DNA of 64,000 nucleotides from Mycolicibacterium fallax (GTDB lineage Bacteria > Actinomycetota > Actinomycetes > Mycobacteriales > Mycobacteriaceae). The stretch is from the NCBI RefSeq assembly GCF_010726955.1, contig NZ_AP022603.1, forward strand, positions 1 to 64,000, written 5' to 3'. The notes under the pieces were generated by a model, which searched no databases, was not told where the DNA came from, and saw only the letters and a list, made by a program, of their open reading frames with translations. A program made the translations under genes and the position numbers. Of this stretch, positions 28,114 through 56,408 are shown in pieces. Within the stretch, counting starts at the first letter, position 1; the number at the start of each line of letters is the position of its first letter.

Positions 28114-28120
28114 GCGCTAG

Positions 28121-28277
28121 GCCTGCGCTACTCCTTCGTCGCAGCTTGGCCTTCTCCTCGGTGTTGATGGTCGGATTCGGCCTGCGCTACTCCTTCGTCG
28201 CAGCTTGGCCTTCTCCTCGGTGTTGATGGTCGGATTCGGCCTGCGCTACTCCTTCGTCGCAGCTTGGCCTTCTCCTC
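28121..28277 (+). repeat. 59-bp tandem repeat, 2.66 copies, at the adenosyltransferase 3' end
   Basis: Three successive copies begin with GCCTGCGCTACTCCTTCGTC at 28121, 28180 and 28239, so the period is 59 bp. Copies 1 and 2 appear identical over the full unit, and copy 3 breaks off at about 28277 where the coding sequence of the upstream gene takes over. Each copy holds, on the minus strand, the codons for the protein end GQAATKE and its TAG stop, so the gene end has been repeated into the downstream spacer. This is a typical variable-number locus in form. Confidence 0.95.
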
Positions 28278-47816: not shown

Positions 47817-47845
47817 CGTAGTCCGACCGCCCGGACCGCGCGGCG

Positions 47846-47938
47846 TTCCTCGCTGCGCTCGTCGAGTCAGCCGGTGCTGGTACGGCTGACCTCTTCCTCG
47901 CTGCGCTCGTCGAGTCAGCCGGCGTAGCGGCTGACGCA
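47846..47938 (+). repeat. 48-bp tandem repeat at the lipoprotein peptidase stop codon
   Basis: Two copies begin TTCCTCGCTGCGCTCGTCGA at 47846 and 47894, a period of 48 bp. The first 29 bases are identical and the rest of the second copy is degenerate. On the minus strand the second copy encodes the last residues and TGA stop of the peptidase gene, and the first copy repeats GTCAGCCG and the GGCTGA stop context downstream. The unit shares CTCGTCGAGTC, CCGGTGCTG and GACCTCTTCCTCG with the 57-bp repeat in murI and runs in the same direction on the plus strand. Confidence 0.85.
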
Positions 47939-53687: not shown

Positions 53688-54721
53688 ACCGGCACGGCTC
53701 GATCACCGACGTCGCCGGCATCCTGGTCGGCCAGCACCACTGGCTGGACGACGACGCCACCCTCGGCACCGGCTGGGCGTCGGGCACGACGGTGCTGCTC
53801 ACCCCGCCGAACACCGTCGGCGGCGTGGACTGCCGCGGTGGCGCGCCGGGCACCCGCGAGACCGAACTGCTGGACCCCGCCAACAGCGTGCAGTACGTCG
53901 ACGCGATCGCGCTGTGCGGCGGCAGCGCCTACGGGCTGGCCGCCGCCGACGGGATCATGAACTGGCTGGAGAGTCAGGGCCGCGGCGTCGCGATGTCCGG
54001 CGGGCTGGTGCCGATCGTGCCGGCCGCGGTGATCTTCGACCTGCCGGTCGGTGCCTGGTCGTCCCGGCCGACCGCCGACTTCGGCTACGCCGCGGCCCGC
54101 TCGGCCGGCACCGAGGTCGCGGTGGGCACCGCCGGTGCGGGCACCGGCGCCCGCTCCGGGGTGCTCAAGGGCGGTGTCGGCACCGCGTCGGTGCGGCTGG
54201 GCGGCCGCTACGACGGGGTCACCGTCGGCGCCCTGGCGATCGTCAACAGCGCGGGCAGCGTCATCGACCCGGACACCGGGCTGCCCTGGATGGCCGACGC
54301 GGTGCGCAGATTCGGGTTGCGGACCCCGCCGCCGGACCAGGTCGCGGCGTTTGCCGCCCGGGACGCCGAACACAACCCGCTGAACACCACCATCGCCGTC
54401 GTCGCGACCGACGCCGCACTGTCCCCGGCCGGCTGCCGGCGGATGGCGATCGCCGCGCACGACGGCCTGGCGCACGCCATCCGCCCGGCGCACACCCCGG
54501 TCGACGGCGACACCGTCTTCGCGCTGTCCACCGGCGCGGTGCGGGTGCCGCCGGACCCGCAGACCCCGCCGCAGATGTCTGCGGAGACCCCGCTGCTGGC
54601 CGCCGTCGGCGCGGCCGCCGCCGAGGCGCTGGCCACCGCCGTGCTCGTCGGGGTGTTCGCCGCAAGCACCGTCGCCGACATCCCGACCTACCGCGATCTG
54701 TTGCCGGGGGCGTTCGCATGA
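53684..54721 (+). CDS. P1 family (DmpA-like) self-cleaving aminopeptidase
   Basis: This 345-residue hydrolase (Rv1333 family) belongs to the S58/DmpA group of N-terminal nucleophile-type enzymes. Conserved parts are DVAGILVGQHHWLDDDATLG, VDCRGGAPGTRETELL, CGGSAYGLAAADGIMNWLE, and the likely self-cleavage site HNPLNTTIAVVATD, where the Thr after Asn would become the nucleophile. The natural substrate is unknown. The ATG overlaps the previous stop by four bases and its stop overlaps the rhomboid ATG. In M. tuberculosis mec, cysO and cysM lie between this gene and the rhomboid gene; here there is no space for them. Confidence 0.9.
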   Translation: MNRHGSITDVAGILVGQHHWLDDDATLGTGWASGTTVLLTPPNTVGGVDCRGGAPGTRETELLDPANSVQYVDAIALCGGSAYGLAAADGIMNWLESQGRGVAMSGGLVPIVPAAVIFDLPVGAWSSRPTADFGYAAARSAGTEVAVGTAGAGTGARSGVLKGGVGTASVRLGGRYDGVTVGALAIVNSAGSVIDPDTGLPWMADAVRRFGLRTPPPDQVAAFAARDAEHNPLNTTIAVVATDAALSPAGCRRMAIAAHDGLAHAIRPAHTPVDGDTVFALSTGAVRVPPDPQTPPQMSAETPLLAAVGAAAAEALATAVLVGVFAASTVADIPTYRDLLPGAFA

Positions 54722-55371
54722 CCATCCCGACCGGCCACCTGGGCACCGAACCGGCCAAACCGCGCCCGGCCTGGCAGGTCGGCGCCGCCACCATCGCCGG
54801 TTTCGTCGCGGTGCTCTACCTGATCGAACTCATCGACACCGTCGCCGGGCACCGGCTGGACTACCACGGCATCGCGCCGATGAGCGCCGACGGACTCTGG
54901 GGCATCGCCTTCGCCCCGCTGCTGCACGCCAACTGGGCGCACCTGATCGCCAACACGATCCCGCTGCTGGTGCTCGGCTTCCTGATGACGCTGTCGGGGA
55001 TGGCCAGATTCGTCTCGGCCACCGCCGTCATCTGGGTGCTCGGCGGATTCGGCACCTGGCTGATCGGTGACGTCGGCCCCTGCCCGGGCTCCTCCATCCA
55101 CATCGGCGCCTCCGGCCTGATCTTCGGCTGGCTGACCTTCCTGCTGGTGTTCGGCTGGTTCAGCCGGCGGCCCTGGGAGATCATCGTCAGCGTCATCGTG
55201 CTGGTCGGCTACGGCAGCGTGCTGTGGGGCGCGGTCCCGGTGCTCAACCGCTGCGGCGGCGTGTCGTGGCAGGCCCACCTGTGCGGCGCGATCGCCGGTG
55301 TGGTCGCCGCCTATCTGCTGTCCGGCCCGGAACGCAAGGCGCGGGCCGAGCGGCGGGCGGTGCGCGGATGA
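54718..55371 (+). CDS. Rhomboid family intramembrane serine protease
   Basis: This 217-residue membrane protein has about six helices. The catalytic serine is in [15 protein letters not shown] and the histidine in [19 protein letters not shown]. The conserved loop [20 protein letters not shown] contains the His-Asn pair of the oxyanion region. Rhomboids cut proteins inside the membrane; the substrate here is not known. It corresponds to Rv1337. The ATG at 54718 overlaps the stop of the P1 peptidase, and its stop overlaps the murI ATG. Confidence 0.93.
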
Positions 55372-56324
55372 CCTCGGGGAAAGAACGCCCCTCGTCGAGT
55401 CGCCCGGTGCTGTCGCGGGCGACCTCTTCCTCGGGGAAAGAACGCCCCTCGTCGAGTCGCCCGGTGGGGTCGCGGGCGACCTCTTCCTCGGGGAAAGAAC
55501 GCCCCTCGTCGAGTCGCCCGGTGGGCGTGTTCGATTCCGGGGTCGGCGGGCTCACCGTCGCCCGCGCGATCATCGACATGCTGCCCGACGAGGAGATGAT
55601 TTACGTCGGCGACACCGGCAACGGGCCGTACGGTCCACTGCCCATCGCCGATATCCGCGCGCATGCCCTGGCGATCATGGACGACCTGGTCGAACGCGGG
55701 GTCAAGGCGCTGGTCATCGCCTGCAACTCGGCGTCCTCGGCGTGCCTGCGCGACGCCAGGGAACGCTACGACGTGCCGGTGGTCGAGGTGATCCTGCCCG
55801 CGGTGCGACGGGCGGTCGCGACCACCCGCAGCGGCCGGATCGGGGTGATCGGGACCGAGGCGACCGTCGCCTCCGGGGCCTACCAGGACGCGTTCGGCGC
55901 CGCGGTGGGCACCGAGATCACCGCGGTGGCCTGCCCCCGGTTCGTCGACTTCGTCGAGCGCGGCATCACCAGCGGTCGGCAGGTGCTGAACCTGGCGGAG
56001 GGCTACCTGGAGCCGCTGCAGCGCGCCGACGTCGACACTCTGGTGCTGGGCTGCACGCACTATCCGCTGCTGTCCGGGCTGATCCAGCTGGTCGTCGGCG
56101 ACGGGGTGACCCTGGTGTCCAGCGCCGAGGAGACCGCCAAGGATTTGCTGCGGGTCCTCACCGAGCAAGATCTGCTGCGCCCGCACGACCTGCCACCGCC
56201 CGGTCGCCGGTTCGAGGCGACCGGCGACCCCGAGGCGTTCCTGGCGCTGGCCTCCCGATTCCTAGGGCCCGCCATCACCGGCGTGGAACCCGCCGCCGGG
56301 CACACCCGGCACGCCGACCGGTAG
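55368..56324 (+). CDS. murI: Glutamate racemase with repeat-extended N-terminus
   Basis: MurI makes D-glutamate for peptidoglycan. The core starts [20 protein letters not shown] (first catalytic region), with active-site cysteines in [18 protein letters not shown] and [14 protein letters not shown] and [17 protein letters not shown] between. The ATG at 55368 gives 318 residues, about 47 more than M. tuberculosis MurI, as recalled. The extra N-terminal part is a 19-residue unit ([19 protein letters not shown]) repeated almost three times by a 57-bp DNA repeat. GTG codons at the Val of each RPV, including 55521 just before GVFDSG, are alternative starts. The ATG overlaps the rhomboid stop. Confidence 0.95.
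55374..55530 (+). repeat. 57-bp in-frame tandem repeat at the start of murI
   Basis: Copies begin TCGGGGAAAGAACGCCCCTC at 55374, 55431 and 55488; the period is exactly 57 bp, that is 19 codons, so the frame of murI is kept. Copy 3 ends where the racemase core begins. Copies differ at only a few positions (CTGTCG against GGGTCG). The unit aligns with the 48-bp repeat at 47846 apart from a nine-base insertion after TTCCTCG. Confidence 0.95.
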
Positions 56325-56408
56325 GCCCGGCGGCTGTGATTGCCGCCACGCCGACGGGATGTGCCGATGTTCGGGTCGCGGCCACCGGCGGCATGGCAAG
56401 CTGGTGAG

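Follow-up and report, generated by a model that had tools for sequence, protein, structure and literature searches.

A dispersed palindromic repeat lies in frame at the start of murI and within other genes of Mycolicibacterium fallax

The tandem repeat at the start of murI in Mycolicibacterium fallax belongs to a dispersed family of short units, each composed of a conserved core and locus-specific complementary arms, which lie in frame inside several genes. From one database record to another, their copy number changes by whole units. We consider the family best explained, with a probability of roughly 0.78, as a small mobile palindromic element, tolerated where it inserts in frame and prone to tandem amplification, similar in part to the Rickettsia palindromic elements (RPEs) and in part to VNTR loci built of mycobacterial interspersed repetitive units (MIRUs).

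The window analyzed here is the stretch of 64,000 nucleotides at positions 1 to 64,000 of contig NZ_AP022603.1. Within it, a gene with a Rhomboid domain (54718..55371, plus strand; Pfam PF01694, E 2.2e-25) ends in a TGA stop codon at 55369-55371 that overlaps the ATG of murI at 55368 (ATGA, 55368-55371), exactly the coupling that the original prediction had described. From this ATG, murI (55368..56324, plus strand) encodes a glutamate racemase of 318 amino acid residues with the racemase part starting at approximately residue 49 (Pfam Asp_Glu_race, E 2.7e-21; TIGR00067, score above cut-off). The 57-bp tandem repeat predicted for the start region is real and in frame with MurI: Tandem Repeats Finder places an array at 55372-55525 with a period of 57, 2.7 copies, 97% matches and a score of 294, and its cores were located. 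Only one of the 24 rows reported for the window scores higher, a perfect 59-bp repeat of 2.7 copies at 28120-28277, which has no second copy in the M. fallax genome by BLAST and by that measure falls outside the murI repeat family. Rhomboid and racemase domains are also found in a single chain in two database proteins, P0050 (418 aa) and P0080 (474 aa), as if the neighboring genes had been fused.

Three units make up the murI array, all on the plus strand and all recognized by R1, a covariance model built from alignment A1 (35 units, out of 45 distinct ones gathered). Unit 1 lacks its 5' part and occupies 55373..55409, with a core piece at 55373-55398 and the right arm plus extension at 55399-55409 (R1 match 55361-55409, E 1.4e-4). 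The left arm and full core of unit 2 span 55416..55455 (left arm 55416-55423, core 55424-55455), followed by the right arm and extension, GTCGCCCG GTG, at 55456..55466 (R1 match 55412-55466, E 2.3e-13). In unit 3 the left arm and full core span 55473..55512 (left arm 55473-55480, core 55481-55512), and the right arm at 55513..55523 continues into native murI sequence according to the alignment with relatives (R1 match 55469-55523, E 2.3e-13). Each unit offers one in-frame GTG codon, as predicted, at 55407, 55464 and 55521, with a further one at 55527. The murI unit contains no stop codon in any of the six frames.

BLAST located further copies of the murI repeat elsewhere in the M. fallax genome, which is a single contig of 4,156,821 bases. 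The strict core pattern CTCTTCCTCG-N(2-28)-CTCGTCGA matched this genome 22 times and its reversed control never. As a genus-wide probe the same pattern proved unspecific, with matches in 45 of 297 genomes, mostly only one or two in each and many of them chance-like, and the covariance model was therefore used instead; units were gathered by exact pattern, so that the core conservation and invariant core ends of A1 are partly so by construction. In the M. fallax genome R1 gave 39 matches at E<1e-3, falling into 17 loci, of which 12 had supplied sequences to the model and five had not (near 715, 1180, 1725, 2919 and 3247 kb). The murI repeat unit is thus a member of a dispersed family with 16 other loci in this genome; copies lie inside unrelated genes, some running with the gene and some against it. 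Most units are 54-60 bp long, and tandem units are spaced 48-60 bp apart, with one pair at 68. A second member within the window (47837..47924, plus strand) consists of two units 48 bp apart, the first one weak (R1 E 2.7e-10 and 0.56 for the two matches in the whole-genome search). At this locus the arm beside the core holds the TGA stop of a minus-strand ORF.

Across the genus, with about 19 candidates scored per genome, R1 matched 13 of 297 genomes at E<1e-5, the M. fallax genome among them, and 62 of 297 at E<=0.01. Matches were most numerous in G187 (M. brumae; at least 21), G000 (at least 19) and G292 ([Mycobacterium] burgundiense; at least 19), and the next genome had seven. Among 298 genomes drawn from the order, nine had matches at E<=1e-4; five of the nine lie outside the genus, each with one weak match (E 1e-6 to 1e-4). 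A search of Rfam returned nothing near a gathering score at the repeat, and no record in the phage and plasmid collections matched the murI array, so that no vector was seen there.

Six of the 17 M. fallax loci lie inside open frames of recognized families (Pfam/NCBIfam), namely MurI, LspA, a NarK-type nitrate transporter, an acyl-CoA thioesterase, an acyltransferase and CobN. In LspA three units lie at the C-terminal end, adjoining what appears to be the ATG of the following ORF; the nitrate transporter carries five. Copies within ORFs of relatives were found in DapF, NuoF and GlfT2 of G292, in an alpha/beta hydrolase of M. mengxianglii (G180) and G068, in a peptide-synthetase-type protein of M. 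brumae (L186) and at the N-terminus of NuoD in G068. The nuoD start region is present twice in G068 (C1:264379 and C1:5411592; 97% identical over the 601-base query), both times with the unit. GlfT2 (galactofuranosyltransferase 2) has four in-frame units in G292 (L247, 1494-1713), and in G274 that site holds a single one (L242, 1495-1543; protein matched by its flanks). All four regular intragenic arrays of M. fallax have a period of 57, and one intragenic pair is spaced 68, while its eight intergenic arrays have periods of 48, 54, 55, 55, 55, 56, 56 and 60. Frame selection on the period of intragenic arrays is at most suggested by these values, because three of the eight intergenic periods are multiples of three as well and 57-bp periods also occur at intergenic arrays of G292.

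The other 11 loci are intergenic, and 10 of these lie at the 3' end of a gene, where gene contexts were taken from open frames and GC3 rather than from annotation; a further open frame spans the element at intergenic loci L089, L097, L106 and L234, and the context table leaves out L236, matched at E 0.01. At the seven loci that lie at ends of minus-strand genes, the stop codon falls in the arm beside the core six times and in the core once.

Units follow the order core, right arm, short spacer and left arm, with a core that is usually 31 bp long and 32 bp at murI. The arms are complementary and locus-specific: at murI they read GTCGCCCG, and other loci have, for instance, ATCAGACG, GTCAGCCG or ACCGGTCG. 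Changes on both sides were seen in eight of the 12 hairpin pairs, and the covariation score of 0.338, compared with 0.120 for shuffled alignments, was reached by none of 500 shuffles; sliding the partner by one to three columns lowered it to 0.060 at most. The number of further pair types did not go beyond shuffles (16 versus 14.5; 118 of 500 shuffles). When arms were swapped among 34 loci, the observed pairing was reached in 0 of 20,000 permutation trials. Counts over the seven outer of eight arm pairs (the innermost, unpaired in 23 of 35, was left out) gave 227 Watson-Crick pairs, two G-T pairs and 16 unpaired positions among 245 cells, and at 11 of 12 M. fallax loci these seven pairs were all formed. 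Folding energy of single units was not beyond that of shuffles, and the claim of a hairpin therefore rests on covariation.

Such a hairpin might act in RNA. Tuberculosis Rho-independent terminators (TRITs) are structured motifs at mycobacterial gene ends, and the unit could similarly be a transcription terminator or RNA processing signal selected at gene ends, its copies in ORFs being accidental. The position of 10 of the 11 intergenic loci, as judged by ORF heuristics, and the covariation of the arms agree with this idea, as does a looser scan, in which an arm-arm hairpin is followed by CTCTTCCT at seven of the 12 loci scanned, including murI. Nevertheless, we regard it as unlikely. Set against TRIT by description, the unit differs in residing also inside ORFs (six of 17 loci), with arms equally perfect there where tested, and in that a T-run was not found at murI; the scan of 54600-56400 gave no T-run terminator, although shuffles would lead one to expect only 0.4. 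Stronger hairpin-plus-T candidates already stand beside L093 and L099. The scarcity of G-T pairs (only two in 245 arm cells) together with the equally perfect arms inside ORFs leads us to infer templating at the DNA level rather than selection on RNA.

The original prediction held that copy-number change in multiples of 57 bp would keep the reading frame, and at all three proteins searched the lengths of database records differ by exact multiples of 19 residues. A MurI of 280 aa, with 99% identity across 87% of the query, falls exactly 38 residues (2 x 19) short of the 318-aa form; it has one unit where the latter has three, and it carries two substitutions. LspA occurs with 268 and 249 residues (three and two units, no substitutions). 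The nitrate transporter of 574 aa with five units has counterparts of 555, 517 and 479 aa with four, two and no units (two, two and six substitutions, respectively); the NarK of M. brumae (478 aa) is likewise without a unit. These records are 95-100% identical over the best alignment and come from drafts with longest contigs of 5.9-129 kb. Judging from such identity, their sources may be other strains of M. fallax or of a species very close to it, and as draft records they lend support to the VNTR idea at murI.

Collapsed or expanded repeats in assemblies could in principle produce such differences, and it is precisely from records with longest contigs of 5.9-129 kb that the shorter MurI, LspA and NarK forms come. 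An origin of this kind seems highly improbable to us, as the one-unit MurI and the empty NarK form carry substitutions elsewhere (two and six), the GlfT2 site has one unit in G274 and four in G292, both single-contig genomes, and the dispersion of the family would itself be unaffected. The best AlphaFold model of MurI (mean pLDDT 73.6, far above the 38.8-58.1 of the other four; 29 sequences) shows residues 1-45 with pLDDT below 50 and no secondary structure, and the repeat is thus predicted to add a disordered tail.

Insertion can be seen in DapF of G292, where an exact 57-bp in-frame insertion is absent from all 11 other genomes aligned; the insert starts with CCGGT, and CCGGT also follows directly after it. 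NuoD was considered as another insertion case and is weaker than DapF, because NuoD N-termini vary among the genomes aligned. Over 31 of 32 loci (L240 misfits the pattern), the longest matches between flanks summed to 215, while 2000 permutations averaged 153 and never exceeded 181; single direct repeats are 4-12 bases long, imperfect and not convincing at every site.

Comparison of the rhomboid/murI junction in relatives, which the original prediction had proposed, gave a divided answer. R1 detected the unit in none of the murI loci of 80 named relatives. Among 21 further murI-region loci from relatives, the only significant match was in M. brumae (E 4e-11), with three other rows at E 0.02-0.07. 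The MurI of M. brumae, the closest among named proteins (91%), carries a single, diverged unit in the same position. Between it and GVFDSG there is no in-frame ATG, GTG or TTG; translation in M. brumae must therefore include the unit, an argument against the view that translation always starts at 55521.

The length-variable, frame-preserving MurI tail that was originally predicted is supported by the 38-residue-shorter allele on draft contigs. Its interpretation as a murI-specific tuning device is not supported, because the same element is present at 17 loci of this genome, in unrelated genes and in both orientations. Under that interpretation, selection would keep a VNTR at murI in particular, and copy number or the extra GTG codons would set the level or activity of MurI. 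It can draw on the difference of two whole units between the murI alleles, on the in-frame GTG in each unit and on the overlap with the rhomboid stop; the murI unit, however, is also found at 16 other loci, M. brumae retains a single unit that is not followed by a start codon, and most relatives do without the unit altogether (0 of 80). We consider locus-specific tuning very improbable.

MIRUs are inserted at overlaps of stop and start codons. That the repeat could simply be a MIRU in another branch of the genus is nonetheless doubtful in our judgment, on a comparison by description. In the portion of PMC3914561 available, MIRUs are units of 46-101 bp at many loci, tandemly arranged and in some cases variable in copy number, and the unit size, the 17 loci and the tandem spacing of 48-60 bp (one of 68) fall within this description. 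An excerpt of PMC4213456 likewise places MIRUs in an operon junction, that of senX3-regX3. The same excerpt, however, states that the senX3-regX3 MIRUs are confined to M. leprae and the M. tuberculosis complex, whereas the hairpin units occur in other mycobacteria, and both in-frame copies within coding sequences and covarying arms are absent from those parts of the MIRU descriptions.

Other short repeats resemble the unit in part, and we return here to the reading of a small mobile palindromic element. REP sequences are short imperfect hairpins dispersed in one genome and moved by RAYT/Y1 transposases. The unit shares with them its short hairpins dispersed within one genome. A Y1/RAYT mobilizer is not supported here: the Y1 transposase domain (Y1_Tnp, PF01797) was matched once in G292 but never in G000 and G187, the other two genomes rich in units. 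Three of 20 genomes searched have it and 17 have none; G002, a 4.0-Mb genome of the genus, has nine matches. RPEs, according to the sections of PMC2229807 and PMC10969869 at hand, are small palindromic repeats that occur between genes and also fused in frame in conserved protein genes, where they are apparently tolerated. Set beside them by description, the mycobacterial unit agrees in its dispersed common sequence, palindromic nature, in-frame position in conserved genes and empty sites in relatives. It differs in size (mostly 54-60 bp, whereas those sections give 105-146 bp and terminal inverted repeats for RPEs), in locus-specific arms matching the host flank, and in tandem in-frame amplification. 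Correia/NEMIS repeats, with a 107-bp form in Neisseria that likewise occurs fused to ORFs according to the relevant part of PMC2229807, and other bacterial MITEs are, as described there, similarly non-autonomous hairpin repeats. The mycobacterial unit is approximately half their size, has no fixed terminal inverted repeat that we could see and has no recognized parent transposon.

A mobile palindromic element would account for the murI locus as follows. A non-autonomous element, carried by a putative mover and inserting with short, imperfect target duplications, may have entered the rhomboid/murI junction before M. fallax and M. brumae split, and the insertion would have been tolerated because the unit is free of stop codons and the frame was kept. 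Later expansion to about three copies, in steps of 19 codons, could have proceeded via slippage or unequal recombination. Translation would begin at the ATG at 55368, in coupling with the rhomboid stop, and turn the repeat into a disordered N-terminal tail, which probably affects the racemase very little. The match between arms and host flank would arise at the DNA level, with the flank serving as template for copying or correcting the hairpin. Quasi-palindrome template switching is a candidate route for such flank-templated arms.

It is possible, and we propose this only tentatively, that the family represents a new kind of mobile element. Wherever it lands, its arms would be converted into the complement of the adjacent sequence, giving a locus-specific palindrome at the DNA level; at gene ends it would take in the neighboring stop codon, and within enzymes such as MurI, GlfT2 and LspA it would provide a 19-codon cassette, open in all six frames, that gains and loses copies. 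Among the open-licence papers listed, judged by titles and the openings of abstracts, none describes this element.

Palindromic elements that keep the frame within conserved genes are known chiefly from Rickettsia, as far as the consulted part of PMC10969869 goes. Mycobacteria seem to have a shorter one, which also appears to make enzymes of the cell envelope and of respiration vary in length in the manner of a VNTR. Should long reads confirm the length alleles, these would provide strain markers and a natural experiment in which the tolerance of conserved enzymes for disordered insertions can be followed. The family would then also offer a tractable system for studying how arms adapt to flanking host sequence, in which DNA templating can be set against RNA selection.
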